A DNA stretch of 64,000 nt from Cetobacterium sp. 8H (lineage in GTDB: Bacteria > Fusobacteriota > Fusobacteriia > Fusobacteriales > Fusobacteriaceae): the NCBI RefSeq assembly GCF_014250675.1, contig NZ_JACHTG010000004.1, positions 1,365,501 to 1,429,500 of the forward strand. The letters run 5' to 3'. Position 1 is the first letter of the stretch; each line of letters begins with the position of its first letter. Shown one piece after another: positions 2,393 to 36,177 of this stretch. The notes beneath the pieces are model-generated. The model was not told the origin of the DNA. It saw only the letters and a program-made list of their open reading frames with translations, and ran no database searches. The position numbers and the translations under genes are program-made.

Positions 2393-3783
2393 TAAGACAA
2401 TTTTGTCGTATATGCTCCACTTTGACTTCAGTTGATATAGATAAAATTGAAAAGTTACAAGAAACAGCAATCATATTAAGTAATGTACTAAATGTAGATA
2501 CTTTTATAGATTGCCCCACGAAAGACTCAGAAAAGGCTTTAGTGGTACATCATTCTAGACCAGTTGGGAAAAGCCTATACTCTAAAAATATAGCTGGAGA
2601 AATTGCAGAATATATAAATGAACCAGCAGTTTTTAGAACTCTTACAACTGGAATGCCCTCTAAAAACTATAAAGCCATAACACAAGAAGGAGAAAGTGTT
2701 TTCCAAAATGTAATAGCTATAAAAAATGATCGCAATGAGATTATTGGGGTTTTAATATTAGAACATCCCACTCAGAAAAAAGAGTTGATAGATTTTCAGG
2801 ATGCGGATACAGAGCCTAAGGTAATAAAGAGACTGAGTGAAGAAAGACATACTATTCCAGAATTAGTGAAAGATGGTGTTGTAATATTTAATAGTTCAGA
2901 AAAAATAACTTATGCAAATGGAATAGCTAAAAAAATTTATGAAAAATTGGGTTTTTCAGATGATATAATTGGAGAAAACTTTCAAAATGTAATAATAAAT
3001 AAAATTGAATTTAAAAATATTTTAAAAAATAGGAAAATAGATGTTGTAGAAGTAAATGTTTTAGGAATGGTTTTGACAATAAGTTACTTCGCAACAATTG
3101 CAGATAAAAATAAGCAAAATGTAATAATGATTATTCGTGATATAACTCAGGAAAAAAATAAGGAACAAGAGTTAATATTAAAATCGGTTGCAATAAAAGA
3201 GATACATCACAGAGTAAAAAATAATCTTCAAACAATAGCGAGCTTATTGAGAATTCAAAGTAGAAGAACCGATAACTCTGAGGTGAAAAAGATTTTAGAA
3301 GAAACAATTAGCAGGATTTTAAGTATAGCAACTACTCATGAAGTTTTATCTAAAAATGGTTTAGATAATTTAAATATAAAAGAAATTGTTGATTTAATAT
3401 ACAAAAATTATTCTACAAAAACTATTGACAAACAAGAAAAAATAGAGTTTACTGTACTAGGTGATAACTTTAATATCTCTTCTGAAAAAGCTACCGCATT
3501 GGCGTTAGTAATAAATGAAATAATTCAAAATATAGTAGATTATGCCTTCCCAGAAGAAGGGAGTGGAGTAGTAAAAATTTTGATTCGAAGAGGAAAGTTT
3601 TTTTCTCAGATAATAATATCTGACAATGGAGTCGGGGTTTCTGAGGAAAAATTGGAAAATACAGGTTTGGGCTTAATGATTGTAGAAAAGATAGTCAAAG
3701 AGCAATTGAAGGGAAACTTTAGTATAAAGAGCAAACTAGGTGTTGGAACAGTTATAAAGTTAGAAATAAAAAATGAATATTGA
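2389..3783 (+). CDS. eutW: EutW, ethanolamine-sensing histidine kinase
   Basis: This 464-residue soluble kinase has no membrane segments. The N-terminal third resembles the sensor domain found in EutW-type kinases, followed by a PAS-like region (about residues 160-255). Then comes a HisKA_2 box IKEIHHRVKNNLQTIASLL with His273/His274, and an HATPase domain with NEIIQNIVDYAF (N box), DNGVG (G1) and TGLGLMIV (G2). It starts in a 4-base ATGA overlap with eutV, so the two are translationally coupled. Its stop codon lies at the 5' edge of the first hairpin of the EutV target. Confidence 0.95.
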   Translation: MIRQFCRICSTLTSVDIDKIEKLQETAIILSNVLNVDTFIDCPTKDSEKALVVHHSRPVGKSLYSKNIAGEIAEYINEPAVFRTLTTGMPSKNYKAITQEGESVFQNVIAIKNDRNEIIGVLILEHPTQKKELIDFQDADTEPKVIKRLSEERHTIPELVKDGVVIFNSSEKITYANGIAKKIYEKLGFSDDIIGENFQNVIINKIEFKNILKNRKIDVVEVNVLGMVLTISYFATIADKNKQNVIMIIRDITQEKNKEQELILKSVAIKEIHHRVKNNLQTIASLLRIQSRRTDNSEVKKILEETISRILSIATTHEVLSKNGLDNLNIKEIVDLIYKNYSTKTIDKQEKIEFTVLGDNFNISSEKATALALVINEIIQNIVDYAFPEEGSGVVKILIRRGKFFSQIIISDNGVGVSEEKLENTGLGLMIVEKIVKEQLKGNFSIKSKLGVGTVIKLEIKNEY

Positions 3784-3884: not shown

Positions 3885-5309
3885 TTGAAGGAAGAGATTA
3901 TAAGTGTTGGGATAGACATAGGAACTTCCACAACAGAGATTGTATTTTCAAAAATTATACTTGAAAATCTATCTTCTGGAGCTAGAGTTCCACAAATAAA
4001 AATAGTTGGAAAAGAAGTTTTTTATAGAAGTGAAATATATACAACACCTTTAATTAATCAATATGAAATAGATATAGATGCTTTGAAAAAGATATTGAAA
4101 GATGAATATGAAAAATCAAAAGTGCCAATAGAGAAAATAGCTACAGGAGCAGTTATAATTACTGGAGAAACAGCAAGAAAAAGCAATGCTAAAGAGGTGT
4201 TAAATGCTGTAAGTGGAATGGCAGGAGATTTTGTAGTTGCAACAGCGGGTCCAGATTTGGAGAGCATAATATCTGGAAAAGGTTCTGGTGCAATGCAATT
4301 TTCAGAAGAAAAAAATACGAGTATTTATAACTTAGATATAGGTGGTGGAACAACGAATATCTCTTTATTTAATAAAGGGGAAGTAATAGATACTACCTGT
4401 TTGGATATAGGTGGGAGGCTTATAAAATTTAGAAATAAGAATTTGGAAATTGAATATATCTATAAAAAGTATGAACAGATAATATCGCAGTTAAATTTAA
4501 AGAGTTTAAAAGTTGGGCAAATAGCTGATGAAAAAGAGATAAAGATGCTATGTAATAAAATAGCGGAACTTCTATTAGAATCTGTTTTAGATAGAGAAAA
4601 AAGTGAGCTATATAAGATTTTAATTACAGATAAAGATTATAAAACAAAAGAGAGTGGAAAATTCGTTAGCTTTTCAGGAGGTGTTGCAGACTGCATATAT
4701 AATCATTATAAAGATGACAAATATAGATATTTTGATATAGGAATAATTTTGGGTGATTCTATAAGAGAGCTATTTGAAAAAAATAATATAGAAGTAGTGA
4801 AACTTGGAGAGACAATAGGAGCAACAGTAGTTGGTGCTGGATCACATACAACGGAAATTAGTGGTAGTACTATAACATATACGGATAATTTGTTTCCCTT
4901 AAAAAATATTCCAGTAATAAAAATAAATGATTTGGAATTGGAAGATGGATATGTTGGATTTAAAGATATTTTATTAAAAAAGTTTGAATGGTTTAAAACC
5001 GATGAAGGTTACCAAGAAGTAGCAATTGGATTGGTAGGAAAAAAGAATTTAAAATATAAAGATATTTTAGAAATAGCAGATCAAATATATTCAGCTTTAA
5101 GTAATTTAAAAAGAGTTATTGTTATTGTTGAAAATGATATAGGTAAAGTATTAGGGCAGAGTTTAATTTTGAAGTATGGATCAAAGGTACCAATAGTATG
5201 TATAGATAGCATAAAAGTAAATGATGGAGACTTCATAGATATAGGGGTTCCATTAGGAAATGGTAGTGTACTACCAGTAATTGTTAAGACATTAGTTTTA
5301 AATTATTAA
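3885..5309 (+). CDS. eutA: EutA, ethanolamine ammonia-lyase reactivase
   Basis: This 474-residue ASKHA-fold ATPase exchanges damaged cobalamin on EutBC. Phosphate-binding segments are visible as [17 protein letters not shown] at the N terminus and [14 protein letters not shown] near residue 150. A TTG at 3885 is the start: GGAGG (3873-3877) is 7 bases upstream and residues 1-10 ([10 protein letters not shown]) match the family start. It is the first gene after the EutV-controlled terminator, so expression of eutA and everything downstream should depend on ethanolamine sensing. Confidence 0.95.
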
Positions 5310-5338
5310 AATAAAATAAATAGAATGGGGTGACGCAA

Positions 5339-6703
5339 ATGAGATTAAATACAAGACTTTTTGGTCAGAACTATGTTTTTAAAAATTTATATGATGTAAT
5401 GGCTAAAGCGAATGAAGAAAAATCTGGTGATGAGTTAGCTGGAATAGCGGCAACAAGCACAAAAGAAAGAGTTGCAGCAAAAGAGGTTTTAGCAAATATA
5501 AAATTAAAAGAGTTTAAAGAAAATCCAGCAGTTCCATATGAAGAGGACGAAGTTACCAGAGTGATAATAGATTCTTTGAATTTGAAGGTATATGAAGAGA
5601 TAAAAGAGTGGACAGTAGGAGAGTTAAGAGAATGGCTTTTATCTACAGAAAATCAAGATAGAGAGATACAGTGGATAAGAAGAGGATTAACTTCAGAAAT
5701 GATATCGGCAGTAACTAAATTGATGTCAAGTTTGGATTTGATTCATGCTGCAAAGAAAATTATTGTTAGAAAACATTGTAATACAACAATTGGAGGAGAT
5801 GGAATTTTAGCTGCAAGATTACAACCAAATCATACAACAGATGATCCCGATGGAATAATGATATCAATATTAGAGGGATTGAGTTATGGAGTTGGAGACG
5901 CTGTAATTGGATTGAATCCAGTTGATGATACAGTAGATAGTGTTGTTAGAGTATTACAAAGATTTGATGAAATAAAGAAAAAATGGCAAATCCCAACTCA
6001 GATATGTGTATTAGCCCATGTAACAACTCAGATGGAAGCTATAAGAAGAGGTGCACCAACAGATTTAATTTTCCAAAGTATTGCTGGATCTCAAAAATCA
6101 AATGAGGCATTTGGAATAACAGGTGCCATGATAGAAGAAGCTAGAGAACTAGCATTAACTCATGGAACAGCAGCCGGGCCAAATGTAATGTATTTTGAAA
6201 CAGGACAAGGATCGGAACTTTCATCAAATGGACACAACGGGGTGGATCAGTTAACGATGGAAGCTAGATGTTATGGTTTTGCTAAAAAATATGATCCATT
6301 TATAGTAAATACAGTTGTTGGATTTATTGGACCAGAGTATTTATATGATAGTAAGCAAGTAATGAGAGCTGGACTAGAAGATCATTTTATGGGAAAACTA
6401 CATGGTTTATCTATGGGTGTTGATGTTTGTTACACAAATCATATGAAAGCGGATCAAAATGATATTGAAAACCTAGCTGTATTACTGACAGCAGCAGGAT
6501 GTAACTATTTTATGGGTGTTCCTGCTGGAGATGACATCATGTTGAATTATCAAACTACAGGTTACCATGATATTCAAACTTTAAGAGAAACATTGAATGT
6601 AAAACCTATAAAAGAGTTTGGTGATTGGTTAGAGAAACATGGAATTAGAGATGAAAAAGGAAAATTAAAAGATATAGCAGGAGACGCATCACTATTTTTA
6701 TAG
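5339..6703 (+). CDS. eutB: EutB, ethanolamine ammonia-lyase large subunit
   Basis: This 454-residue TIM-barrel subunit carries the adenosylcobalamin enzyme's active site and converts ethanolamine to acetaldehyde and ammonia. E. coli EutB is 453 residues. Strongly conserved stretches include LQPNHTTDDPDGI, GDAVIGLNPVDD and FETGQGSELSSNGHNGVDQ. ATG 5339 is chosen because GGGGTG (5327-5332) is 6 bases upstream; an in-frame GTG at 5330 lies inside that site. Confidence 0.98.
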   Translation: MRLNTRLFGQNYVFKNLYDVMAKANEEKSGDELAGIAATSTKERVAAKEVLANIKLKEFKENPAVPYEEDEVTRVIIDSLNLKVYEEIKEWTVGELREWLLSTENQDREIQWIRRGLTSEMISAVTKLMSSLDLIHAAKKIIVRKHCNTTIGGDGILAARLQPNHTTDDPDGIMISILEGLSYGVGDAVIGLNPVDDTVDSVVRVLQRFDEIKKKWQIPTQICVLAHVTTQMEAIRRGAPTDLIFQSIAGSQKSNEAFGITGAMIEEARELALTHGTAAGPNVMYFETGQGSELSSNGHNGVDQLTMEARCYGFAKKYDPFIVNTVVGFIGPEYLYDSKQVMRAGLEDHFMGKLHGLSMGVDVCYTNHMKADQNDIENLAVLLTAAGCNYFMGVPAGDDIMLNYQTTGYHDIQTLRETLNVKPIKEFGDWLEKHGIRDEKGKLKDIAGDASLFL

Positions 6704-6714
6704 GAGGAGATAAA

Positions 6715-7593
6715 ATGATTTCTGAAAAAGAGTTGAAGAATATAATTTCGCAAGTTCTAAAAGAGATGGACGGGGAAGTAAAAAATATAGATAGAGTTAA
6801 AGAAAAAGTTGTAGGAAGTATGGAGGGGCTAGAGGATGTTGAAGATATAACAAAGGTTGATTTGAGAGAAATTATTGAATTGAAAAATCCAATAAATAGA
6901 GAGGAACTATTAAAGTATAAAAGAAAAACACCAGCAAGAGTAGGTATATCAAGAGCAGGAACAAGATATACTACTGAGACAATGTTAAGATTTAGAGCGG
7001 ACCATGCATCGGCACAAGATGCTGTATTCACAGATGTATCAAATGAAGTGTTGGAGAAAAATAATTTATTTACAGTTCAAACAAAATGTAATTCAAAAGA
7101 TGAGTATATAACAAGACCAGATTTAGGAAGAAGATTATCTGATGAATCTGTAAAAATTTTAAAAGAAAAATGTAAAAAAAATCCAGTTGTAGAAGTATAT
7201 ATATCAGATGGATTAAGTTCTACTGCAGTTGAAGCAAATGTTGCTGAAATTTTACCATCATTACTAAATGGATTAAAATCATATGGAATTGATACTGGAA
7301 CACCATTTTTCTTAAAATATGGAAGAGTTGGGGCTTCGGATGATGTTGCTGAAACTTTAGGTGCAACAGTAACTTGTGTTTTAATAGGAGAGAGACCAGG
7401 ACTTGCAACAGCTGAAAGTATGAGTGCTTATATAACTTATAAAGGATATGTTGGAATCCCAGAGGCTAAGAGAACCGTTGTTTCAAATATTCATGAAAGA
7501 GGAACACCCGCAGCAGAGGCAGGGGCGCACATAGCTCATATAATTAAGAAGATTTTAGATGCTAAAGCTAGTGGACAAGATTTAAAACTATAA
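6715..7593 (+). CDS. eutC: EutC, ethanolamine ammonia-lyase small subunit
   Basis: This 292-residue cobalamin-binding partner of EutB (E. coli 295) lies 11 bases downstream of it. Conserved parts include PARVGISRAGTRYTTETML, FRADHASAQDAV, ISDGLSSTAVEAN and IGERPGLATAESMSAY. The N terminus (MISEKELKNIISQVLKEMDG) is a short amphipathic helix followed by a charged linker. In Salmonella the equivalent EutC segment targets the lyase into the microcompartment. Confidence 0.98.
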   Translation: MISEKELKNIISQVLKEMDGEVKNIDRVKEKVVGSMEGLEDVEDITKVDLREIIELKNPINREELLKYKRKTPARVGISRAGTRYTTETMLRFRADHASAQDAVFTDVSNEVLEKNNLFTVQTKCNSKDEYITRPDLGRRLSDESVKILKEKCKKNPVVEVYISDGLSSTAVEANVAEILPSLLNGLKSYGIDTGTPFFLKYGRVGASDDVAETLGATVTCVLIGERPGLATAESMSAYITYKGYVGIPEAKRTVVSNIHERGTPAAEAGAHIAHIIKKILDAKASGQDLKL

Positions 7594-20237: not shown

Positions 20238-22220
20238 GTGCGTAGAATAGGGGTATTTGTTTGTTGGTGTGGAAGTAACATTGCCGGAACTGTGGATGTT
20301 GAAAAAGTTAGAGAAGCAGTAAAAGATATGCCAGGCGTTGTTCATTCGGTAGATTACCAATATATGTGCTCAGAGGTAGGGCAAAATTATTTAAAAGATG
20401 CAATAAAAGAGAAAAATTTAGATAGAATAGTTGTGGCATCATGTTCACCAAGAATGCATGAGGCTACATTTAGAAAAGCTGCTGAATCAGCAGGATTAAA
20501 TCCATATTTAGTGGAAATAGCAAATATAAGAGAACATTGTTCATGGGTTCATAAAGATAAAGAGGTAGGAACAGAAAAAGCAATATCTTTAACAAAGGCA
20601 GCTATAGCTAAAGCGACTTTAAATGAAGAGCTGGTATCTGGGACAACTCAAGTAGAAAAAAGAGCTCTTGTAATTGGTGGTGGAATAGCAGGAATTCAAA
20701 CTGCTTTGGATATAGCAGATGCGGGGTATTTAGTAGATATCGTTGAGCAAACACCAAGTATTGGAGGGAAAATGGCTCAAATAGATAAAACTTTCCCAAC
20801 TCTAGATTGTTCTGCATGTATATTAACACCAAAAATGGTTGATGCGGCTGCCCATCCAAATATAACTCTTTACACTTATAGTGAAATTGAAAGTGTAAAT
20901 GGATTTGTAGGAAACTTTAATGTTGCAATTAAAAAGAAACCTCGTTATGTGGATATGGATAAGTGTACAGGATGTGGAGTATGCATTGAAAAATGTCCGT
21001 CAAAAAAAGGGAAAAGTGAATTTGAAGAGGGGTTAGCTACTAGAACAGCAATCTATACACCGTTTGCTCAATCAGTACCTAAAGTTCCTGTAATAGACAA
21101 AGAGCAGTGCTTAAAGTTTAAAACAGGTAAGTGTGGAATATGTTCTGCTGTGTGTGGAACAAAAGCTGTAAAGTTTGACCAAGAAGAAGAAATTGTTAAT
21201 CAAACTTATGGAGCAATTGTTTTAGCTACAGGTTTTGATTTGATAAAGTTAGATAACTTTGGTGAATTCCATAATGAGCACCCTGATGTTATAACAGGAT
21301 TAGAGTTTGAAAGATTAACTAATGCGGCGGGGCCTACAAAAGGTAAATTTGTAAAACCTTCAAATGGAGAAAGACCTAAAAAAGTTGTTTTTGTTCAATG
21401 TGTAGGATCGAGAGATAAAAGTGAAAGAGGAAAATCATATTGTTCAAAAATTTGTTGTATGTATACAGCAAAACATGCGATGTTAATAAAAGATAAATAT
21501 CCAGATACAGAGGTTTATGTATTTTATATAGATGTACGTACTCCAGGTAAAAACTTTGATGAGTTTCATAGAAGAGCGGTAGAAGAGTATGGAGTTCACT
21601 ATATAAAAGGTATGGTTGGAAAGGTAATGCCAGAAGGAGAGAAGTTAATGGTTCAAGCTATAGATTCTCTATCAGGAACACCTTTAGAAATAGATGCAGA
21701 TATGGTTGTTTTAGCATCTGCAACACAGGCAAAACCAGATGCTGTAGCATTAAAAAGAAAGCTTAACATAAGTAGTGACTTAAATAATTTCTTTACAGAA
21801 GCACATCCTAAATTAAAACCAGTAGAGACAGCATCCGCTGGAATATATTTAGCAGGAGCATGTCAAGGGCCAAAAGATATTCCTGAGACTGTAGCCCAAG
21901 CTAGTGCAGCGGCAGCAAAAGCTATAATATTGCTAAGCAAAAAAGAACTTACAAATAATGCATGTGTGTCAAATGTAAATAAAAATATCTGTAGCGGATG
22001 TAAAGCGTGTTCAAAGATGTGTCCATATGATGCTATTAGCATAAAGATGATGGATATATATGAGCATGGTAAAGTAATAAGAAAAGAGGTTGCTGAAGTA
22101 AACGAAGCACTTTGTCAAGGATGTGGAGGATGTACTGTATCTTGTCGTCCTGGAGCTATTGATTTAAGAGGATTTACTAACAAACAGATAATGGCGGAGG
22201 TAGACGCAATATGTCTTTAG
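20238..22220 (+). CDS. hdrA: HdrA, FAD-containing electron-bifurcating subunit
   Basis: This 660-residue full-length HdrA begins RIGVFVCWCGSNIAGTVDVE. It has the FAD-binding fold ALVIGGGIAGIQTALDIADAG (about residue 141 on) and the following SIGGKMAQIDKTFPTLDCSACI segment. An inserted ferredoxin (CTGCGVCIEKCP, later CGICSAVCG) follows. Two C-terminal [4Fe-4S] motifs are CSGCKACSKMCPYDAI and CQGCGGCTVSCRPGAI. HdrA is the flavin where electrons are bifurcated between ferredoxin and a high-potential acceptor. GTG 20238 has GAGGAGG upstream; the end overlaps mvhD by 10 bases. Confidence 0.95.
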   Translation: MRRIGVFVCWCGSNIAGTVDVEKVREAVKDMPGVVHSVDYQYMCSEVGQNYLKDAIKEKNLDRIVVASCSPRMHEATFRKAAESAGLNPYLVEIANIREHCSWVHKDKEVGTEKAISLTKAAIAKATLNEELVSGTTQVEKRALVIGGGIAGIQTALDIADAGYLVDIVEQTPSIGGKMAQIDKTFPTLDCSACILTPKMVDAAAHPNITLYTYSEIESVNGFVGNFNVAIKKKPRYVDMDKCTGCGVCIEKCPSKKGKSEFEEGLATRTAIYTPFAQSVPKVPVIDKEQCLKFKTGKCGICSAVCGTKAVKFDQEEEIVNQTYGAIVLATGFDLIKLDNFGEFHNEHPDVITGLEFERLTNAAGPTKGKFVKPSNGERPKKVVFVQCVGSRDKSERGKSYCSKICCMYTAKHAMLIKDKYPDTEVYVFYIDVRTPGKNFDEFHRRAVEEYGVHYIKGMVGKVMPEGEKLMVQAIDSLSGTPLEIDADMVVLASATQAKPDAVALKRKLNISSDLNNFFTEAHPKLKPVETASAGIYLAGACQGPKDIPETVAQASAAAAKAIILLSKKELTNNACVSNVNKNICSGCKACSKMCPYDAISIKMMDIYEHGKVIRKEVAEVNEALCQGCGGCTVSCRPGAIDLRGFTNKQIMAEVDAICL

Positions 22221-22660
22221 AAATAAATAAAAAAGAAGAATTTAAACCTTTAATAGTTGCATTTTGCTGTAACTGGTGTAGCTATGCAGGAGCGGATTTG
22301 GCTGGAACAAGTAGATTAAATTATCCAGCAAACGTAAAGATAATTCGTGTTCCTTGTTCATGTAGAGTAAATCCTAACTTTGTTTTACGTGCTTTCCAAA
22401 AAGGGGCAGACGGTGTTGTAATGGCAGGATGCCATCCAGGGGACTGTCATTATTCAACAGGGAACTATTATACAAGAAGACGTTTTTCTATATTCACAAA
22501 CCTGCTTGAATTTATGGGAATTGAAAAAGATCGTTTCAAAGTGGATTGGATATCTGCAGCAGAGGCTAATAAATTCTCTACAGTAATGAATGATATTTTA
22601 GATAAAGTTCATAAATTAGGACCAAATAGGAAGTTGAGGGATACGAGATGGGAAAGATAG
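22211..22660 (+). CDS. flxD: MvhD/FlxD-type [2Fe-2S] subunit
   Basis: This 149-residue protein connects an electron donor to HdrA. It shows AFCCNWCSYAGADLAGTSR, VPCSCRVNPNFVL and AGCHPGDCHYSTGNYYTRRR, all typical of MvhD. No hydrogenase large or small [NiFe] subunit is nearby; instead the flx genes follow. The gene overlaps both neighbours, so translation is coupled. Confidence 0.92.
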   Translation: MSLEINKKEEFKPLIVAFCCNWCSYAGADLAGTSRLNYPANVKIIRVPCSCRVNPNFVLRAFQKGADGVVMAGCHPGDCHYSTGNYYTRRRFSIFTNLLEFMGIEKDRFKVDWISAAEANKFSTVMNDILDKVHKLGPNRKLRDTRWER

Positions 22661-23445
22661 AGATGATATTAAATGCTAAAGAGGATTTTAAATTAGGAAA
22701 AATTCAGATGATTTTAGGGTGGAAAAAAGAGGATGAGTCTATAGAATCAATACCAGCTTTTATAGAGAGTGTTGAAGAGTTAGAAGAATTGATCTATGAC
22801 GAGTACTGTGTAAATAACCTTTCAAAATATTTAATAGAAGAAGCTAAAAATGGGAAAAAAGTAGGGATTTTTCTAAAAAAATGTGATGCTTTAGGAATGG
22901 AACAAATGATAAAAGATAATAGAATTTTATCTGAAAATATAGTACCTTATCAAGTTGAGTGTTCAGGGATGAAAGATTTTCAAACAGGAGAAATCTTTAA
23001 GAAATGTCAAAAATGTTTAGATGAATCTCAAGATAAATATGCAGAAGTTAAAGAAATAGAAAATATGACTCATGATGAAAGATATGATTATTGGATGGGA
23101 GAGCTTTCTAAATGTATCAGATGTAATGCATGCAGAAATATATGTCCTGCTTGTAACTGTGAAACATGTGTTTTTGAGAAAAAAGATGAGGATATATTGG
23201 GAAAAGCTAATAATGAAAGTGAAACAGGATTCTATCAAATAATAAGAGCATATCATGTAGCGGGACGTTGTTCTGACTGTGGAGAGTGCGAAAGAATATG
23301 TCCTGTTGGAATCCCACTTGGAAAAATTAATAAAAAAATAATAAAAGATATAGAAGAGCTTTATGGAAAAGAGGATGACGATACATTATCAAGCTTTAAT
23401 TTAGAAGATGACGACACATTTACAGAGAAAAAAGGAGGGAAGTAA
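22648..23445 (+). CDS. flxC: FlxC-like 4Fe-4S dicluster protein
   Basis: This 265-residue protein has cysteine motifs KCIRCNACRNICPACNCETC and GRCSDCGECERICPVGIP, enough for two [4Fe-4S] clusters. The N-terminal half resembles the FrhB/HdrA-linked type (FLKKCDALGMEQMIKDN, VECSGM). Position between mvhD and FlxB fits the FlxABCD set known from Desulfovibrio. The C-terminal tail is acidic (DDDT repeats). Confidence 0.8.
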   Translation: MGKIEMILNAKEDFKLGKIQMILGWKKEDESIESIPAFIESVEELEELIYDEYCVNNLSKYLIEEAKNGKKVGIFLKKCDALGMEQMIKDNRILSENIVPYQVECSGMKDFQTGEIFKKCQKCLDESQDKYAEVKEIENMTHDERYDYWMGELSKCIRCNACRNICPACNCETCVFEKKDEDILGKANNESETGFYQIIRAYHVAGRCSDCGECERICPVGIPLGKINKKIIKDIEELYGKEDDDTLSSFNLEDDDTFTEKKGGK

Positions 23446-24482
23446 TGAAAAAAATATCTAAAAATAATCTTTTATTAGCGTGGCAAAAAATAGATGAAAA
23501 ATTTGATTTATTCCTTCCAAAATCAGAAAATGGAAATGTAAAGTTTAAAAACTTTGAAGAAAGTGGAGAAGTTGATTTAACTACTCTTAAAACTAGTATA
23601 CCTTTAAAAAACTTTGTGTTTCCTCAAACAGAAACTTTTTTAAAGTTTAAAACAAAAGATAAGAAGATAAAATTTGATATTACAAGTGTTTCGGAAGATG
23701 AATATGTAATATTTGGTTCAAGACCTTGTGATATAAAATCTTTGGAGATCTTAGACAACATCTTTTTAAGAGAGCCAGTGGATACATATTATAAAGCTCA
23801 TAGGGATAGAGCTATTATAATATCTTTAGCTTGTAAAAATCCGGAGAGTAGCTGTTTTTGTGGAGCTTTTGAAATAGAGCCAACATCAGTAAATAAAGCT
23901 ACAGATATCTCTTTAATTGAAGCTGGAGATTTCTATTATTGGAATACTATTAGTGAAAAAGGTCAAAAAATAACTGAGCTTTTAAAAGATGTTTTAGAAG
24001 AGGTCTCATCAGAAGATTTAGTAGTTTTAAATATTGAAAAAGATAGAATTAAATTGGAATTGGAGAAGTTGCCTTTAAATTCTTTAGATTTAGAAAAAAT
24101 AGATGGTGATCTTCAAGAGATTTTTGATAAAGAGAAGGTGTGGAAAGAGCTTTCAAGAAGATGTTTAGCTTGTGGTTCTTGTACATATGTATGTCCAACT
24201 TGTCACTGTTATGATGTTAAAGATTATGCAGGGAATAATGCTGGAGAAAGATTCCGTTGCTGGGATTCATGTATGTTCTCAGATTTTACTTTGATGGCTC
24301 ATGGGAATCCAAGAACTGATCAAATGCAAAGAGTTAGACAAAGATTTATGCATAAACTTGTTTACTATCCAAATAATCACGAGGGAACATATTCTTGTGT
24401 TGGATGTGGAAGATGTATAGAAAAATGCCCTGTTCATATAGATATAGTTAAAGTAATAAAAAAATTGGTGGTGAATAAATAA
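23445..24482 (+). CDS. flxB: FlxB-like 4Fe-4S protein (AsrA/HydB-type)
   Basis: This 345-residue protein has a beta-rich N-terminal two thirds with FGSRPCDIKSLEILD, typical of the AsrA/HydB family that docks on an NAD(P)-binding flavoprotein. Two C-terminal cluster motifs follow, CLACGSCTYVCPTCHCYD and CVGCGRCIEKCPVHI. It transfers electrons from FlxA towards FlxC/D and HdrA. It overlaps both adjacent genes by one base. Confidence 0.88.
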   Translation: MKKISKNNLLLAWQKIDEKFDLFLPKSENGNVKFKNFEESGEVDLTTLKTSIPLKNFVFPQTETFLKFKTKDKKIKFDITSVSEDEYVIFGSRPCDIKSLEILDNIFLREPVDTYYKAHRDRAIIISLACKNPESSCFCGAFEIEPTSVNKATDISLIEAGDFYYWNTISEKGQKITELLKDVLEEVSSEDLVVLNIEKDRIKLELEKLPLNSLDLEKIDGDLQEIFDKEKVWKELSRRCLACGSCTYVCPTCHCYDVKDYAGNNAGERFRCWDSCMFSDFTLMAHGNPRTDQMQRVRQRFMHKLVYYPNNHEGTYSCVGCGRCIEKCPVHIDIVKVIKKLVVNK

Positions 24483-25321
24483 TGGCGTGTACTTGTCATG
24501 AAAAGGATCCTTTGGTTCCTAAGATAGCGAAATTAGAATTTGTAAGAAGAGATACTCCGGATGTAACAACATTTAGAATTGTATCACCAGAAGGAGAGGC
24601 TCCTTTTGAATTTAAGCCAGGTCAGTGTGCAATGATTTCTGTACCACCTTTAGGTGAGGCAATATTTTCAATAACATCTTCTCCAACTGAGGAAGGATAT
24701 ATAGAGTGTAGTATAAAAAAGTGTGGTGCTGTAACAGATTATCTTCACACTTTAGAAGCTGGAGATGAAATTGGAATAAGGGGGCCATACGGAAACAACT
24801 TTCCAATTGAAGAGTTGAAAAATAAAGATTTATTATTTATAGGAGGGGGGATAGGACTAGCACCTCTTAGATCGGTAATAAATTATGTTATGGATAGAAG
24901 AGATGAATTTGGAAAGGTAGATATAGTTTATGGAGCTAGAACACCTGAAGATTTAGTTCATCCAAACGATATATATAATGTTTGGCCGGCAGAAAAAAAT
25001 ACAGACGTTTATTTAACTGTTGATAGAGAAGCTAAAAATTGGAATGGAAATGTTGGATTTGTGCCTAACTATGTTAAGGAATTAGGGTTTGATACAAATA
25101 AGGTTGCATTAGTTTGTGGACCACCAATTATGATAAAATATGTTCTTCAAGGATTAGAAGAGATAGGATTTAAAAAAGAACAGGTTTATACAACTTTAGA
25201 ATTAAAAATGAAATGTGGATTTGGAAAGTGTGGACGTTGTAATATCGGAGATAAATATGTTTGTAAAGATGGACCAGTATTTAGATGTGATGAAATAACT
25301 GAGCTTCCAGATGAATATTAA
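24482..25321 (+). CDS. flxA: FlxA-like FAD/NAD(P)H-binding oxidoreductase subunit
   Basis: This 279-residue ferredoxin-NADP reductase-fold protein (AsrB/HydG/PyrK group) has a FAD-binding barrel with FKPGQCAMISVPPLGEAIFS. The nucleotide-binding segment is FIGGGIGLAPLRSVI and CGPPIMI. A C-terminal [2Fe-2S] site is MKCGFGKCGRCNIGDKYVC. It is the likely entry point for NADH electrons. NADH rather than NADPH is assumed from Flx homologues, not read from the sequence. Confidence 0.9.
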   Translation: MACTCHEKDPLVPKIAKLEFVRRDTPDVTTFRIVSPEGEAPFEFKPGQCAMISVPPLGEAIFSITSSPTEEGYIECSIKKCGAVTDYLHTLEAGDEIGIRGPYGNNFPIEELKNKDLLFIGGGIGLAPLRSVINYVMDRRDEFGKVDIVYGARTPEDLVHPNDIYNVWPAEKNTDVYLTVDREAKNWNGNVGFVPNYVKELGFDTNKVALVCGPPIMIKYVLQGLEEIGFKKEQVYTTLELKMKCGFGKCGRCNIGDKYVCKDGPVFRCDEITELPDEY

Positions 25322-25343
25322 TACCCTACAGGAGGAAAAAAAA

Positions 25344-26024
25344 GTGACTGATAAAAAAATGGTTGATGTATATATACTAGGAAAAAAGTATTCTGTTCCG
25401 AATACTCTAACGATAATGGAATCGATGGAGTATGCAGGGTATCAATTAAAAAGAGGATGTGGATGTAGATCAGGTTTCTGTGGAGCATGTGCAACTGTTT
25501 ATAGAGTAAAAGGAAATAAAGAGATGAAGGTTGTTCTTGCTTGTCAAAGTAAGGTAGAAGATAATATGTATTTAACTCAAATCCCTTTCTTCCCAGGGGA
25601 TAAAGGAGTTTATGATTTAAATAATTTGGAAGCAACTGCAGATACAATAGCGAAATATTATCCTGAAGTTTATAAATGTATTGGATGTAACTCTTGTACA
25701 AAAGGATGTTCTCAAAGTCTAGATGTAATGCAATATATCGGGTATGCTCAAAGAGGAGAATTAGAAAAGTGTGCTCATGCATCTTTTGACTGCGTATCTT
25801 GTGGAATATGTGCAACGAGATGTCCAGCAGGAATAACGCACTACAATGTAGGACTTTTAGCTCGTAGACTTACAGGTAAGTATATAGCAGCTCAAACTGC
25901 TCATTTAAATGAGAGAGTAGAAGAGATCTATGAAGGGGTTCATGATAGTGCTCTAGAAGAGTTAATGGGTAAGACTACAGACGAATTAAAGTCATTATAT
26001 AATAATAGAGACATCACAAAATAG
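25344..26024 (+). CDS. FrdB/TfrB-like iron-sulfur subunit ([2Fe-2S] plus two [4Fe-4S])
   Basis: This 226-residue protein has a plant-type ferredoxin domain with RGCGCRSGFCGACATVY and LACQ. Two [4Fe-4S] motifs are CIGCNSCTKGCSQ and CVSCGICATRCPAGI. The order matches fumarate-reductase FrdB-like proteins, but the cysteine spacing is CX4CX2C plus full 4Fe motifs, and no membrane anchor or CCG domain is present. GTG 25344 is the start because AGGAGG lies 8 bases upstream; an ATG at 25311 lies inside flxA. It probably links Hdr/Flx to the FrdA-like protein that follows. Confidence 0.88.
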   Translation: MTDKKMVDVYILGKKYSVPNTLTIMESMEYAGYQLKRGCGCRSGFCGACATVYRVKGNKEMKVVLACQSKVEDNMYLTQIPFFPGDKGVYDLNNLEATADTIAKYYPEVYKCIGCNSCTKGCSQSLDVMQYIGYAQRGELEKCAHASFDCVSCGICATRCPAGITHYNVGLLARRLTGKYIAAQTAHLNERVEEIYEGVHDSALEELMGKTTDELKSLYNNRDITK

Positions 26025-26043
26025 GAAAATTGGAGGAGATTTA

Positions 26044-27648
26044 ATGTATACACCAGAAATGAGAGAACTTATAAAAAAAGTTGAAGAAACTCGTTCTCAA
26101 AGAATCGCTAAAGGAGATTTTCCAAGAATGACTGCTGAAGAGAAAACAGAAGTTTTAGAAGAAAATCATCCTGATTACATAGAAAGTGGATTTGTTGAAC
26201 TAAAAGTTGGTCCAAATAAAGGTGAAAAAGTACCTAATGAACTAGGTGAACTTTTACAAGGTAAAAGTAGAATTGAAGAATTGAAAATAGATTTAAACAA
26301 AGTGGATTATGAAGCAGATGTCTTAATTATTGGAGGTGGAGGATCAGGTGCAGCAGCAGCACTTGAAGCTCATAAAGCTGGTTCAAAAGTAATTATAGCC
26401 ACAAAATTACGTTTTGGAGATGCAAATACAATGATGGCAGAAGGTGGAATTCAGGCAGCTGATAAACCGGATGATTCACCAGCTTTACACTATTTGGATG
26501 TTATGGGTGGAGGTCATTATTCAAATGTTCCTGAATTGGCAGCAGCTCTAGTAAAAGACGCACCAGTTGCAATAAAATGGTTAGATGACTTAGGTGTTAT
26601 GTTTGACAAAGAAAAAGATGGAACTATGGTCACAACTCATGGTGGAGGAACTTCAAGAAGAAGAATGCATGCGGCAGCAGATTATTCTGGAGCTGAAATA
26701 ATGCGTGTTTTAAGAGATGAAGTTCAAAATAAAGAGATTGAAGTTTTAGAATTTTCTCCAGCAGTAGAATTAATAATGGATACTGAAGGAAAAGTTGCAG
26801 GAGCAGTTCTTTTCAATATTGAAACAGAAGAGTATCATGTAGCTAGAGCTAAAACCGTTATAATTGCTACTGGTGGAGCAGGAAGACTTCATTATCAAGG
26901 GTTTCCAACTTCGAATCACTACGGGGCAACGGCTGACGGACTTGTGTTAGGATACAGAGTTGGAGCAAAATTAGCTTTTGCTGATACAATTCAATACCAT
27001 CCTACAGGAGTAGCATATCCAGCTCAAATTTTTGGAGCTCTTGTGACAGAAAAAGTACGTAGCTTAGGGGCGACACCTTTAAATATTCATGGTGAGCAGT
27101 TTGTTTATCATTTAGAGACGAGAGATGTAGAAGCATCAGCAATAATAAGAGAGTGTAATATAAAAGGAAAAGGAATTCCAACTCCAAACGGAGGGCAAGG
27201 TGTTTGGTTAGATACTCCATTAATTGAGATACTAAATGGACCTGGAACTATTGAAAAAAGAGTTCCAGCAATGATGAGAATGTATCAAAAGTTTGGAATA
27301 GATATGAGAAAAGAACCAATACTAATCTATCCAACTCTTCATTATCAAAATGGTGGACTTTTAATAGATGAAAATGGTGCAACAAGTATAGAAAATCTTT
27401 ATGTTGCAGGAGAAGCAGCAGGGGGAATCCATGGAAGAAATAGACTTATGGGTAACTCACTTCTAGATATTATTGTATTTGGAAGAAGAGCTGGAAAGTC
27501 AGCTGGAAATCTATCGAAAAAAGTGGAGTTAAAAGATTTAACTTTAAATCATGTAGAGGAATTTCATAGCATGTTGGCGGAGGCTGATTTAGTTACTAAC
27601 TCGGTATCTCCTATGTTATTACCAAATTATACAAATAAAGGGAAGTAA
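26044..27648 (+). CDS. FrdA-like flavoprotein (fumarate reductase/TfrA type)
   Basis: This 534-residue FAD protein starts its dinucleotide fold (VLIIGGGGSGAAAALEA) only at about residue 95, after an unusual N-terminal extension. Substrate-site residues of the fumarate reductase family are present: QYHPTG with His319, EKVR with Arg339, LHYQNGG with His433 and GRNRLMGNSL. The histidine that binds FAD covalently in membrane Frd/Sdh is Asn128 here (DANTMMAEGG), so FAD should be non-covalent. It lacks the long C-terminal helical domain of FrdA. Fumarate is the likeliest substrate; another enoate is possible. Confidence 0.87.
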   Translation: MYTPEMRELIKKVEETRSQRIAKGDFPRMTAEEKTEVLEENHPDYIESGFVELKVGPNKGEKVPNELGELLQGKSRIEELKIDLNKVDYEADVLIIGGGGSGAAAALEAHKAGSKVIIATKLRFGDANTMMAEGGIQAADKPDDSPALHYLDVMGGGHYSNVPELAAALVKDAPVAIKWLDDLGVMFDKEKDGTMVTTHGGGTSRRRMHAAADYSGAEIMRVLRDEVQNKEIEVLEFSPAVELIMDTEGKVAGAVLFNIETEEYHVARAKTVIIATGGAGRLHYQGFPTSNHYGATADGLVLGYRVGAKLAFADTIQYHPTGVAYPAQIFGALVTEKVRSLGATPLNIHGEQFVYHLETRDVEASAIIRECNIKGKGIPTPNGGQGVWLDTPLIEILNGPGTIEKRVPAMMRMYQKFGIDMRKEPILIYPTLHYQNGGLLIDENGATSIENLYVAGEAAGGIHGRNRLMGNSLLDIIVFGRRAGKSAGNLSKKVELKDLTLNHVEEFHSMLAEADLVTNSVSPMLLPNYTNKGK

Positions 27649-27650
27649 AT

Positions 27651-28181
27651 ATGAGGAAAGAATACGATGAAACCTTAAATAAGAGTCTTAGAATATCTAT
27701 TTCAGTTTTCTTATGTGTTTTTTTACTCAAAGTTATATTTGGTGTCAATCCTTTCTACGCTGCTATAGCAGCTGTATCTTGTTTGCAAGGTACTATAAAG
27801 GATTCTTTCAAAGTGGGGACTGAAAGAATAATAGGAACAATTTTTGGTGGGGGAATAGGTTTAATAGCCATATATTTTATATCGACAGAAGCAAGTGATT
27901 TTAAAGGGAGTTTGATCATAGGACTGTCTATGATGGTTATAATCTTTGGATCTACATATCTGTTAAAAAAACCAGCTTCAAATACAATAGCATGTATAGT
28001 CTTTTTAGGAATTGCTACAAATATGGAGGGAAGAGATCCTTATTATTGGGCTTTAAAAAGGATAATTACAACTATTATCGGAGTGATTATAGCACTCATT
28101 TGTAACTGGATTATAAGTGGCGAGTATAAAAAAAGTAAATTTTTTAAGAAAAAACATTTGACAGGAAATGAGGATATGTAG
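27651..28181 (+). CDS. FUSC/aromatic-acid-exporter-type small membrane protein
   Basis: This 176-residue protein has about five hydrophobic segments and resembles the N-terminal membrane domain of the FUSC/ArAE family (LRISISVFLCVFLL, NPFYAAIAAVSCLQ, GTERIIGTIFGGGIGL). It lacks the cytoplasmic half of larger family members. It begins two bases after the FrdA-like gene, so it is probably co-transcribed with the redox operon. Its role there is unclear. A promoter for the downstream RNA overlaps its 3' end. Confidence 0.8.
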   Translation: MRKEYDETLNKSLRISISVFLCVFLLKVIFGVNPFYAAIAAVSCLQGTIKDSFKVGTERIIGTIFGGGIGLIAIYFISTEASDFKGSLIIGLSMMVIIFGSTYLLKKPASNTIACIVFLGIATNMEGRDPYYWALKRIITTIIGVIIALICNWIISGEYKKSKFFKKKHLTGNEDM

Positions 28182-28187
28182 TATACT
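28158..28187 (+). promoter_or_regulatory. Strong promoter for the structured RNA, inside the end of the FUSC gene
   Basis: TTGACA (28158-28163) and TATACT (28182-28187) with an 18-base spacer. Transcription should begin near 28193-28195. Confidence 0.8.
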
Positions 28188-28190
28188 CAC

Positions 28191-28332
28191 CCTAACATAA
28201 AACAGAAGAGAGGTTAGTTCACTTCCATATACGGAGCCTAAGGCCGACGGCGATGATGTTATGACCCTGTGAATTAAGTATTGTGAAGCTGCCATAACAA
28301 TACGCTTATTAATTTTTATTAAGTTCTCTAAG
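28191..28332 (+). ncRNA. Unidentified structured RNA, riboswitch-like leader or sRNA
   Basis: This non-coding stretch is far richer in GC and in paired segments than its surroundings. AGTTCAC (28216-28222) pairs with GTGAATT (28269-28275), enclosing TTCC/GGAG and the compact GC-rich block AGCCTAAGGCCGACGGC (28235-28251). GTATTGT (28278-28284) pairs with ACAATAC (28297-28303). TGTTATG (28257-28263) can instead pair with CATAACA (28293-28299). GAGAG near 28208 can close with CTCT near 28327. It has its own promoter and is followed by a terminator, the layout of a transcriptional riboswitch in front of the M14-type gene. I could not match it to the consensus of any riboswitch class I know. Confidence 0.65.
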
Positions 28333-28359
28333 GCATACCCTTTTTTGGGTATGCTTTTT
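28333..28359 (+). terminator. Rho-independent terminator after the structured RNA
   Basis: GCATACCC (28333-28340), loop of six T, GGGTATGC (28347-28354), then five T. It stands between the RNA and the ribosome site of the M14-type gene, so it could be the expression platform or simply the end of an sRNA. Confidence 0.88.
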
Positions 28360-28396
28360 CTTTTGGGTAGAATACTAAATCTTAAGGGGAGACAAT

Positions 28397-32301: not shown

Positions 32302-32450
32302 AGAATCCTCCAACAGAATTTAATATTTCATAATTATTTTACAATTAAAAAATATAAATCCTTTGAAAATATAAAATTCACAAAAAAATATTAAATTTAT
32401 TAGATTGTATGTGCTATAATAAATCATTAATTTTGAAAAAGGAGATAAAT

Positions 32451-33773
32451 GTGCAACTTAAAATTAGGACTAACGAATTTAAAATGATGATAGTAGTTTT
32501 TTTTATAGGATTGATATTACCTTTTTTTTTAACACATCAAAATTTCAAAATATATGACTCTATAAACAGAGGATTAGAACTTTGGGATAAAGAACATATA
32601 CTAATAGCTATGTTTAAGTTAGTTTTTTTAAATACACTTAGAGCAATTCCAATCTATATCTCAATGTTTTTAATGTTTGATTCAATAGAATTAATAAAAA
32701 AAGAAAAAGAAAAAACAATAGAAAAGATATTATTTATTTTACCTGTGATACCTATTATGTATAAATTGATTGATTTTTTTTATGAAATACATTTGCCAAT
32801 TGGAAAGACATCAATATTAGGAATTTTATGGTTTTGCTATTATATACGTTTTAATTTTAAAACAATAAATTTTTTTCAAAAAAATTTAGTTTTTTTGTCT
32901 TTTATAGTTGGATTGCAATGGTTAGATATAAGTGGATATTTTAATTTTTTAGGGGTTGGAGAAATAACTTCTGATTTAAATAAAGTGATAGATTTTATGG
33001 ATGGACAATTAATTTCAACATTGTTATGTATAAGTTTTTTCTTTTTTTTTACTTCTAATTCAATATTGTTATTATATTTTTTTAAAGGGCAAGAAAATAT
33101 AATAGCTAGATATGAGTCAGAACTTGAAAATAGACACTTAAAAGAGGTTCAGCAAGTTGTGCATGATTTAAAAACACCTATATTTTCAATAGGAACATTA
33201 CTAGAAGTATTAATGTTACAAGAAGAAGACGAAAGAAAAAAGAACTATCTCAATAGAATAGGAGATTCTATTGAAAAAACAAATTTGATGATCAGTGAAA
33301 TATTGAAATTCAAATCTAAAAAACCAATTTTAATAGACGATATGATGAATTTTGTATTCTCATTTTTATCAGTTCATAAAAATTTAAAAAAAATAATTTA
33401 TAATAACTATACAGATAAAAATCATAGAATTTATGGAAATAGAGTTCTTTTATCTAGAATTATTATAAATATAATTGTAAATGCTTGGGAAGCAAATTCA
33501 GAAAAGGTAGTAGTTAGTATAAAAGGTTATAAAAAGTTTACTGTAATAAAAATTGAAGATTATGGGGATGGAATAGAGGATGGAAATCTAGAGAAGCTAT
33601 TACAAGAAGGATTCTCAACAAAAGATTCATCAGGAAAAGGTTTATCTTTTGTAAATAAGGCAATAAAAGAGTTTGGTGGAAAAATATTTATTTTAAAAAA
33701 AATAGAGAAAGGACTAAATATTTTTTTAGTTTTAAAGGGAGGGTCAAAAAATGAAAAAAGTATTAATTGTTGA
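32451..33773 (+). CDS. Membrane sensor histidine kinase
   Basis: This 440-residue kinase has an N-terminal half with about six hydrophobic segments and no large periplasmic domain. The kinase half has H-box QQVVHDLKTPIFSIGTLLE, N-box IINIIVNAWEAN, and ATP-lid EDYGDGIEDG / SSGKGLSFVNKAI. The GTG at 32451 is the start (GGAG 32441-32444); an in-frame ATG at 32409 overlaps the TATAAT promoter element at 32415-32420. It overlaps its response regulator gene. The signal is unknown. Confidence 0.88.
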   Translation: MQLKIRTNEFKMMIVVFFIGLILPFFLTHQNFKIYDSINRGLELWDKEHILIAMFKLVFLNTLRAIPIYISMFLMFDSIELIKKEKEKTIEKILFILPVIPIMYKLIDFFYEIHLPIGKTSILGILWFCYYIRFNFKTINFFQKNLVFLSFIVGLQWLDISGYFNFLGVGEITSDLNKVIDFMDGQLISTLLCISFFFFFTSNSILLLYFFKGQENIIARYESELENRHLKEVQQVVHDLKTPIFSIGTLLEVLMLQEEDERKKNYLNRIGDSIEKTNLMISEILKFKSKKPILIDDMMNFVFSFLSVHKNLKKIIYNNYTDKNHRIYGNRVLLSRIIINIIVNAWEANSEKVVVSIKGYKKFTVIKIEDYGDGIEDGNLEKLLQEGFSTKDSSGKGLSFVNKAIKEFGGKIFILKKIEKGLNIFLVLKGGSKNEKSINC

Positions 33774-34353
33774 TGATTCTGAAGATATTTGTTTTGCAGT
33801 GTCTGAATTTTTTAAGTATAAAGGTTGGGAAGTTGAAAGTGTTGGTGATGTAGAAAAATCTTTGGATATTATAAGAAGTAAAAAGTTTGATGTAATATTA
33901 ATAGATTATAATATGCCATACATAAATGGAGTAATAGGGGTAAAATTAATAAGACAGTTGGATAAAGAAGTTCCAATTATAGCTTTAACTGTAGAGTGTG
34001 AAGAAAGTGTAGCTGAAGATTTTTTTAAATCTGGAGCTAATGATTTCGCGATAAAACCTATAAAAATGTTGGATTTATATTCTAGAATAAATGTTCATAT
34101 GAATACAAGTTATAAATTGAAAGAAGAGGTAGAGTATCCAAAAGGAATTGATAAAAATACCTTAGCATTAATATTAGATTGTTTAAAGAAAGAGAAGAAC
34201 TATTTAAGTGTTGAAAGAATATCTGATATAACTGGTGTTGCTTCTAAAACTGTAAATAGATATCTAAATTATATGTGTAGTCAAAATAAAGTTATATTAA
34301 ATACAATATATGGGAAAATAGGAAGACCTAAAAAAGAGTATAAATTGAAATGA
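33751..34353 (+). CDS. Response regulator, CitB/DcuR-like
   Basis: This 200-residue protein has a receiver domain (LIVDDSE, phospho-Asp in ILIDYNMPY, and KPIK). A C-terminal winged-helix of the DcuR/CitB kind follows (LSVERISDITGVASKTVNRYLNYM, ending GRPKKEYKL). Family members often control uptake and use of di- and tricarboxylates. The next gene downstream is the first ggt, behind its own promoter, so the gamma-glutamyl cluster is a likely target (inference). Confidence 0.88.
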   Translation: MKKVLIVDDSEDICFAVSEFFKYKGWEVESVGDVEKSLDIIRSKKFDVILIDYNMPYINGVIGVKLIRQLDKEVPIIALTVECEESVAEDFFKSGANDFAIKPIKMLDLYSRINVHMNTSYKLKEEVEYPKGIDKNTLALILDCLKKEKNYLSVERISDITGVASKTVNRYLNYMCSQNKVILNTIYGKIGRPKKEYKLK

Positions 34354-34378
34354 AGTCATAAAAAGACTTCATTTTTTT
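34351..34378 (+). terminator. Rho-independent terminator after the two-component genes
   Basis: TGAAGTC (34351-34357) and GACTTCA (34365-34371), loop of 7, then seven T. The stem begins on the regulator's stop codon. Confidence 0.88.
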
Positions 34379-34419
34379 GTGTGAGAATAAAGAGAAAAAA
34401 GCGAAATAAGAACGTTATA

Positions 34420-34448
34420 TTTACAATTTGTTCGTAAAGTTGTATAAA
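34420..34448 (+). promoter_or_regulatory. Promoter of the ggt-pgs operon
   Basis: TTTACA (34420-34425) and TATAAA (34443-34448) with a 17-base spacer. GAAC (34410-34413) and GTTC (34430-34433) flank the -35 element as a short inverted repeat, a possible regulator site. Confidence 0.6.
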
Positions 34449-34479
34449 AATAGTAAGAGAAGAATAGAGGGAGGGAAAA

Positions 34480-36177
34480 GTGAAAAGTTTTAAAAGACTA
34501 AAGATAGGTTCTGTATTGATGTTTACTTTATTTTCTACAGCAAAAGAGATATTAGGTAACCCTTTGAATTTATATGGAAGAAATTCAATAGCTAAAAATG
34601 GAGTAGTGGCAGCAGCTAAACCAGAAGCCTCGGAAGTAGGAGTTAAAATTTTAGAAAAAGGTGGAAATGCAGTTGATGCTGCAATAGCAACAGCATTTGC
34701 AATTGGGGTTTTAGAACCTAATGCTTCTGGAATAGGTGGTGGAGGATTCATGTTGATTAGAATGGCTAAAACAGGTGAAACAGTAGTTATAGATTATAGA
34801 GAAGAGGCACCTGGAAAAGCTACACCAACAATGTTTAAAGTTGATGAAAAAGGAAAAGTAATAGATGATGAGATAAAAGTTGGTGGAAAGGCTTCGGGAG
34901 TTCCTGGAACAGTTGCGGGACTTTTAACAGCATTAGAGAAATATGGAACATTAGACAGAAAAGAGGTAATGGCTCCAGCTATAGAGTATGCAAGAAGTGG
35001 TATTCTAGTAACTGAAAATTTAGCCTCAATAATAACAGATAATTATGAGAAACTTTCAGAATTTGCAGAAGCTTCAAAAATCTATTTGAAGGATGGCTTA
35101 CCTTATGAAGCAGGAGATACTATAAAAAATCCTGATTTAGCAAGAAGTTTAGAAAAAATAGCTACTGAAGGAAAAGATGGTTTTTATAAGGGGGAAATAG
35201 CTAAAAAAATAGAAGAAGAGATGAAAAAACAGGGCGGATTAATAACTCAGAAAGACCTTAAAAATTATAAGGTCAAAGAGAGACAACCAGTTACTGGTGA
35301 GTATAGAGGATATACAATAATATCAACACCACCTGCAAGTTCTGGTGGAACCCATATAGTACAGCTTTTAAATATGATGGAAAATTATGATTTGAAAAGT
35401 TTAGGTGGAAATACAGCAAAAACATGGCATATTTGGTCTGAAGGTATGAGACAAATGTTTGCTGATAGATCTGAATATATGGGGGATACTGATTTTGTTG
35501 AAGTTCCATTAAAAGGGTTAGTATCAAAAGATTATGCTAAAGATTTGACAACAAAGTTTAATTTAGAAAAGCCAAGTGAAGATGTAACTCCAGGAAATCC
35601 ATCAAAATATGAAAGTGAAAGTACTACGCATTTTTCTGTGATGGATAAAGAGGGAAATATGGTTGCAGTGACACAGACAATAAACTATTTCTTTGGTTCA
35701 GGAGTTGTTATTTCAGGAACAGGAATTATGATGAATAATGAGATGGATGATTTTGTGGCAGTACCAGGACAAAAAAATTCGATAGAACCTGGGAAAAGAC
35801 CATTAAGTTCAATGAGTCCAACATTAGTTTTAGATCCACAAAAGAGACCTTTTATGACAATAGGCTCTCCAGGTGCAACAAGAATAATTCCAGCAGTAGC
35901 TTTAACGATAAGCAATGTAATAGATCATGGAATGACAATTCAAGAAGCTATAAGTGCACCAAGAATAACACAATTTCAGTTTGGACCTCTGAGAGCTGAG
36001 GGAAGAATCTCGGTTAATGCATATAACAAACTAAAAGAGATGGGGCATGAGATAGACCTAAAAGAAGATTATGATTCATATTTTGGTGGGGTACAAGCTG
36101 TTGTTATGAATTATGAAACAAAAACATTAGAAGGTGGAGCAGATCCTAGAAGAGATGGGCAAGCAGTAGGTTATTAA
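34480..36177 (+). CDS. ggt: Gamma-glutamyltransferase 1 (GGT), exported
   Basis: This 565-residue precursor has a signal peptide-like start (LKIGSVLMFTLFSTAKEIL). The N-terminal domain has GGNAVDAAIATAFAIGV and GIGGGGFML. Self-cleavage should occur before catalytic Thr382 in STTHFSVMDKEGN, giving the two usual subunits; RPLSSMSPTLV is the oxyanion/serine motif. GGT hydrolyses or transfers gamma-glutamyl groups of glutathione or polyglutamate. Start GTG 34480 with GGGAGGG upstream. It is followed by a paralogue. Confidence 0.94.
   Translation: MKSFKRLKIGSVLMFTLFSTAKEILGNPLNLYGRNSIAKNGVVAAAKPEASEVGVKILEKGGNAVDAAIATAFAIGVLEPNASGIGGGGFMLIRMAKTGETVVIDYREEAPGKATPTMFKVDEKGKVIDDEIKVGGKASGVPGTVAGLLTALEKYGTLDRKEVMAPAIEYARSGILVTENLASIITDNYEKLSEFAEASKIYLKDGLPYEAGDTIKNPDLARSLEKIATEGKDGFYKGEIAKKIEEEMKKQGGLITQKDLKNYKVKERQPVTGEYRGYTIISTPPASSGGTHIVQLLNMMENYDLKSLGGNTAKTWHIWSEGMRQMFADRSEYMGDTDFVEVPLKGLVSKDYAKDLTTKFNLEKPSEDVTPGNPSKYESESTTHFSVMDKEGNMVAVTQTINYFFGSGVVISGTGIMMNNEMDDFVAVPGQKNSIEPGKRPLSSMSPTLVLDPQKRPFMTIGSPGATRIIPAVALTISNVIDHGMTIQEAISAPRITQFQFGPLRAEGRISVNAYNKLKEMGHEIDLKEDYDSYFGGVQAVVMNYETKTLEGGADPRRDGQAVGY

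Follow-up and report, generated by a model that had tools for sequence, protein, structure and literature searches.

A structured RNA leader of Cetobacterium and near relatives as a candidate riboswitch class, with arginine or a close relative as its possible ligand

The amino-acid ligands given in the riboswitch reviews consulted are glycine, lysine and glutamine only, and no natural bacterial arginine riboswitch was found in the literature searched. The lysine riboswitch (L-box, RF00168) acts as an OFF switch elsewhere and has a five-helix junction. In Clostridioides difficile it controls NhaC as well as YfcC with an M20 amidohydrolase (PMC11477304), which ties these carriers to basic amino acids. 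The nearest description in the phylum is the trpB motif (SRC-39-1), an orphan candidate described as having over 900 representatives in Firmicutes and Fusobacteria, consisting of at least two hairpins with an antiterminator in P1 and lying before trpB and ABC transporters (PMC11109978).

Here we describe a leader RNA of Cetobacterium sp. 8H, located at 28191–28359 of a 64,000-nt stretch of contig NZ_JACHTG010000004.1 (termed "the window"), which has a conserved aptamer-like fold, a terminator and an association with particular genes. It occurs in the same Cetobacterium genomes as the L-box and before the same carrier families, but it carries three arms on P1 and its genes include ArgH, AstE and YjiH. 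As with the trpB motif, a leader with terminator and, here, a proposed antiterminator stands ahead of amino-acid transport genes; going by the published description, however, the two are set apart by fold, genes and range, the RNA described here being multi-arm and held by few genera (PMC11109978). The glutamine and glycine riboswitches are likewise amino-acid-related cis-regulators, and neither gave an Rfam match here. That the RNA represents a real candidate riboswitch class absent from Rfam is well supported, and its ligand and polarity are put forward as hypotheses.

The leader and its fold

The promoter proposed in a first-pass annotation of this DNA (Table 1) matches the sigma-70 consensus better than any other site in the region (11/12), and it overlaps the final codons of an upstream FUSC-like ORF (27651–28181); a TATACT-like −10 element is also seen 5′ of most other copies of the RNA. 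The strong terminator placed before the gene by the same annotation likewise held up, being the sole terminator-like site in the searched region (28330–28357 followed by a T run, one found against 0.2 expected). The leader had further been called GC-rich, which is true relative to the window (39% for the leader and 43% for its core, against 31%), but the leader value is reached by 8% of the window's 125-nt stretches. Directly upstream, at 20238–27648, lies a long Fe-S/flavoprotein operon with an HdrA/TfrA-type (heterodisulfide-reductase/fumarate-reductase) look by eye. Pfam matches at 32409–36177 show a pair of histidine kinase and response regulator genes and, behind them, a gamma-glutamyltranspeptidase whose N-terminus resembles a signal peptide.

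Table 1. Features of the leader RNA locus, in window coordinates.
Feature	Position	Strand	Details or evidence
Promoter	28158–28187	+	TTGACA −35 at 28158–28163, 18-nt spacer, TATACT −10 at 28182–28187
Aptamer domain	28210–28328	+	P1 (28210–28213/28325–28328) closes a junction of three arms (P2/P3/P3a, P4, P5); RNAalifold, 15 sequences
P2, base of first arm	28214–28222 with 28269–28277	+	Covarying pairs, e.g., C-G to U-A, A-U to G-C
P3	28226–28232 with 28258–28263, one bulge	+	Compensatory changes in 5/6 pairs
P3a hairpin GCC-[UAAGGCCGAC]-GGC, near-invariant 10-nt loop	28236–28251	+	Columns invariant in 22 sequences
P4 hairpin, 7 pairs	28278–28303	+	Near-invariant 12-nt loop GANGCUGCCAUA at 28285–28296; 100% of cells paired
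P5 hairpin, variable loop	28305–28308 with 28320–28323	+	93% of cells paired; both-sided changes in one pair
Intrinsic terminator	28330–28359	+	11-pair stem 28330–28340/28347–28357 and T run; GGCA in 5′ arm, complementary to P4-loop UGCC
Ribosome-binding site AAGGGGAG	28384–28391	+	Sequence; precedes ATG at 28397
Exported AstE/AspA-family zinc deacylase, 364 aa	28397–29491	+	PF24827, E 2.8e-26

The segment 28191–28359 folds at −42.7 kcal/mol (z = −2.75 against shuffles), to which the terminator contributes most, and the aptamer part alone (28205–28330) reaches only z = −0.55, so that folding energy by itself is no evidence; what lifts the leader above chance is conservation together with covariation. 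When the named pairs were counted on an alignment of 22 distinct sequences, 95.3% of pair cells formed, compared with 28–47% in slid controls, and compensatory changes were present in 14 of the 25 core pairs, in 57 cells. Unstructured alignments simulated along the maximum-likelihood tree (n = 300) reached at most 57.9% paired cells, with compensatory changes in at most 10 pairs and 28 cells, which bears out the earlier view of a structured non-coding leader. RNAalifold recovered the same helices unprompted and, on 15 longer sequences, the entire fold including P1 and P5. A G-C to A-U compensatory change was also observed in P3a of one locus (L016), and pairs of P4 with both-sided changes number three in alignment A1 and four in A3. 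The RNA is thus a conserved, covarying structure in a 5′ mRNA leader.

The loops UAAGGCCGAY of P3a and GANGCUGCCAUA of P4 hardly vary, and judging from their letters the GGC of one could contact the GCC of the other. The most divergent copies, those preceding YfcC, are without P1 and P2 and keep only P3/P3a, P4 and the terminator, so that these two hairpins look like the core; from the promoter position, placed by eye, these copies appear to start inside P3. Between terminator and start codon (28360–28396 in the window) many copies have in common a UUUUGGG-type stretch or, in the YjiH-440 class, a short AU hairpin ahead of the ribosome-binding site, and either may be a second regulatory feature.

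Rfam 15, including the M-box model, gave no match at gathering score anywhere in the window, in agreement with the first-pass statement that the RNA does not match the M-box, lysine and other listed riboswitches. A permissive scan returned weak matches only (best E 0.018), all below gathering scores, and the top ones have the terminator at their centre; VrrA, RsaA, Ref84, SR1 and the other families in that scan were set aside, the best of them being terminator look-alikes. At the element itself RF00168 stayed below its gathering cutoff, and the same model does detect true L-boxes in these genomes. The absence of an Rfam match and the presence of covarying stems, the two things named in that annotation as support, are both observed, and the suggested new riboswitch class is plausible.

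A leader of this kind might also bind a protein or an uncharged tRNA and cause antitermination without a metabolite. In favour of this, the conserved loops may serve to contact a protein or tRNA, one class of copies has a gene for a YheO-like PAS/HTH regulator behind it, and the metabolite ligand is hypothetical. However, the element has no Rfam T-box match, the tRNA-type UGGN is not conserved (CGGC in class 1, UGGC in the other classes), and an RNA of this size, with several arms and two near-invariant loops, has the typical look of an aptamer; we regard a protein or tRNA leader as improbable.

Copies and the genes behind them

Using a covariance model built from the 22 distinct sequences, 45 credible copies were identified in 17 of 98 Fusobacteriota genomes, covering all 12 genomes of the genus Cetobacterium as well as the genera coded g2, g7 and g10. 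The genome of the window holds two copies, the second (found by DNA search) being 78% identical and located ahead of a YjiH-like transporter, and in relatives the number per genome rises to as many as five. Searching 40 genomes of the bacterial family with higher sensitivity gave no further convincing copy. A 46th covariance-model match (G054, E 0.0019) was rejected as lying antisense inside a long ORF, and matches at E 0.25–1 in three genomes (G036, G030, G003) were treated as noise. In the plasmid collection, copies are present on two C. somerae replicons only, with no annotated feature beneath the match; a phage origin was dismissed, the five pattern matches on viral contigs having no second motif and the look of coding sequence. 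As far as seen, the RNA is restricted to Cetobacterium and near relatives.

Wherever the contig extends far enough, the terminator is followed after 17–53 nt by the start of a same-strand ORF. The next genes behind the 45 copies are YjiH-440 (15, one inferred across a contig break), AstE/AspA (9), YjiH-446 (8), NhaC followed by ArgH (8), YfcC (4, two of them inferred at contig ends) and ArgH directly (1); one locus can hold YfcC, then NhaC, then ArgH, with two RNAs. The exported M14-type deacylase noted earlier is indeed encoded behind the window copy, at 28397, but the RNA is not specific to M14-type genes, since AstE/AspA follows 9 of the 45 copies and the others stand before genes for transporters or argininosuccinate lyase. 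In genus g7, two genomes carry the RNA-terminator cassette between an rRNA-methyltransferase-like gene and yjiH, and the four sister genomes examined have a gap of 20–40 nt at that position, a pattern of presence and absence expected of a discrete cis module.

This arrangement bears on the other suggestion of the first-pass annotation, namely an sRNA, taken here as an independent, trans-acting one that stands before a gene by chance. The RNA has its own promoter and terminator, as an sRNA would; however, wherever the contig is long enough the gene follows at 17–53 nt, in all six contexts, and such a gap leaves little room for another promoter, which makes an sRNA very unlikely.

The window deacylase keeps the HGNE, DLH and ELG motifs of its family when aligned to PDB 3na6; its PDB relatives, 3na6 and 6twl (DoeB), match at these positions, and it is related to the DoeB deacetylases. 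Its N-terminus is hydrophobic and signal-peptide-like as judged by eye, and an 88% identical deacylase was found on a Cetobacterium sp. contig. In genome G031 a group II intron (Rfam RF00029, RF02004) splits an AstE/AspA orthologue (L186, 4055–4708 with ORF 4713–5567), and there is no leader match of the RNA there.

Arginine as the candidate ligand

The six gene contexts share an arginine or basic amino-acid theme, so the RNA stands before functionally related genes. In the Cetobacterium genomes that have the downstream ArgH (TIGR00838, 601 bits), no other argininosuccinate lyase passes the cutoff; YfcC matches the NCBI "putative basic amino acid antiporter" at 741 bits, NhaC weakly resembles arginine/ornithine exchangers of the ArcD type, and one Cetobacterium YjiH operon includes a Lys/Arg/Orn-like solute-binding protein (SBP), a permease and an ATPase. 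Above-cutoff ArgG is present in seven Cetobacterium genomes, of which six also have above-cutoff ArgH; in the seventh (G011, 67% complete) the RNA and NhaC lie at a contig end. One genome of the genus has ArgH without above-cutoff ArgG and four are without both. ArgB has no above-cutoff match in the genus. Arginine deiminase has none either, and consequently no link to its pathway is drawn.

In genomes of other genera that are without the RNA, YjiH homologues of 44–48% identity adjoin ABC components, with an SBP best matching the lysine/arginine/ornithine family, and are clustered with an octopine-dehydrogenase-family protein, M20 hydrolases, and ArgH or ArgG-ArgH. Known RNA families ahead of RNA-less orthologues included nothing relevant, just tRNAs, cobalamin aptamers (for other genes) and group II introns. 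Three loci (L183, L184, L185) combine amino-acid ABC genes, a YjiH-like carrier, an M20 hydrolase, an octopine/nopaline-dehydrogenase-family protein and ArgH (ArgG-ArgH in G014), a cluster with which these Fusobacteriota look equipped to take up and use octopine or other conjugates of arginine.

The SBP-argG operons themselves carry an Arg-codon leader ORF in six genomes of four genera (Cetobacterium and three related ones). These ORFs (MTMRRVLRTHN.., MTMRRILRTQ..) are seen at L241 (minus strand, upstream of ORF 6397–7110), at L242 (about 3507–3610) and at L243–L246, each set with a terminator-like hairpin by eye, and resemble an arginine leader-peptide attenuator; this pathway is thus probably under arginine-responsive attenuation there, by another mechanism. 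Both systems would attenuate transcription and presumably respond to the same signal, arginine supply, but the argG leaders would sense the translation of Arg codons and the RNA described here has no conserved leader ORF. That ribosome-mediated attenuation might nonetheless operate here too, as it apparently does for argG in the same genomes, is extremely unlikely: across the copies there is no start codon with a consistent ORF, nor a conserved short ORF rich in Arg or other regulatory codons, L070 is without any ORF of three or more codons, and conservation falls on the loops and paired stems.

Taken together, ArgH, the carriers, the YjiH neighbours, the argG leaders and the separate lysine switches make arginine or a near relative the best ligand guess. 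The first-pass annotation had thought of an amino acid, an acyl-amino acid or a dipeptide; the amino acid stands, narrowed by gene context to arginine or a close relative, and the other two are less parsimonious. Against arginine, the SBP-argG operon itself is without the RNA, the YjiH link leans on homologues from other genera of 44–48% identity, and in g7 the yjiH neighbours are glutamine-related.

The same riboswitch could bind a different ligand, whether lysine (as a second class), glutamine, histidine or some further amino acid or ion that these carriers handle. Three of the gene families encode carriers of uncertain substrate, the YfcC and NhaC homologues of C. difficile are under a lysine riboswitch (PMC11477304), and in g7 yjiH adjoins either a glutaminase and an amino-acid (AGCS) carrier or a glutamine synthetase. 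Yet ArgH does not belong to lysine, glutamine or histidine metabolism, elsewhere ArgG/ArgH and octopine dehydrogenase are among the neighbours of YjiH homologues, and lysine in particular is disfavoured because canonical lysine riboswitches (RF00168) are present in all 12 genomes of the genus. We consider a different ligand unlikely, if still the foremost competitor to arginine.

Our preferred reading, which we hold to be somewhat more probable than not, is a cis-acting, transcription-terminating riboswitch class outside Rfam that turns its genes OFF on sensing arginine or, as close relatives of it, citrulline, ornithine or an arginine conjugate.

Switching model and its meaning

A terminator stands behind the aptamer in the copies examined. 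Its 5′ arm is complementary to the P4 loop, as UGCC/GGCA in most copies and as ACGCU/AGCGU in the YjiH-446 class, for which the predicted nascent fold has a longer antiterminator. The duplex energy with the P4 loop averages −6.75 kcal/mol for 29 distinct switch terminators, whereas the 394 remaining terminators of the loci studied average −4.41 kcal/mol (nominal p = 1e-9, with relatedness ignored and the pairing just 4–5 bp in most copies). On base complementarity, this suggests that the P4 loop may be part of an antiterminator. P1 and the terminator lie next to each other and can form together, as would suit a ligand-stabilised aptamer coupled to termination and hence to OFF; ligand binding, switching and this polarity are inferred.

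In the proposed mechanism, the aptamer would bind arginine or one of the close relatives named above. Under ligand shortage, the 5′ strand of P4 together with the loop (GANGCUGCC) would pair with the terminator 5′ arm (GGCA, or AGCGU in one subclass) and termination would not occur; when it is bound, P4 would be held in the aptamer, the 5′ arm would be freed, the terminator would form and transcription would stop. Plentiful arginine would then lower the expression of ArgH and of genes for the transport and scavenging of basic amino acids or arginine conjugates, including the exported deacylase.

Tentatively, and with less assurance than for the reading above, this may be the first natural bacterial arginine riboswitch class, with its own fold, an OFF-type terminator platform and an antiterminator using the P4 loop. 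If so, arginine would join glycine, lysine and glutamine as the fourth standard amino acid to be sensed directly. Given a covariation-supported leader on arginine-linked genes, an arginine riboswitch becomes directly testable with a transcript of about 125 nt, and the RNA offers a handle on the poorly characterised carriers YjiH, NhaC and YfcC and on the exported deacylase in these fish-gut bacteria.
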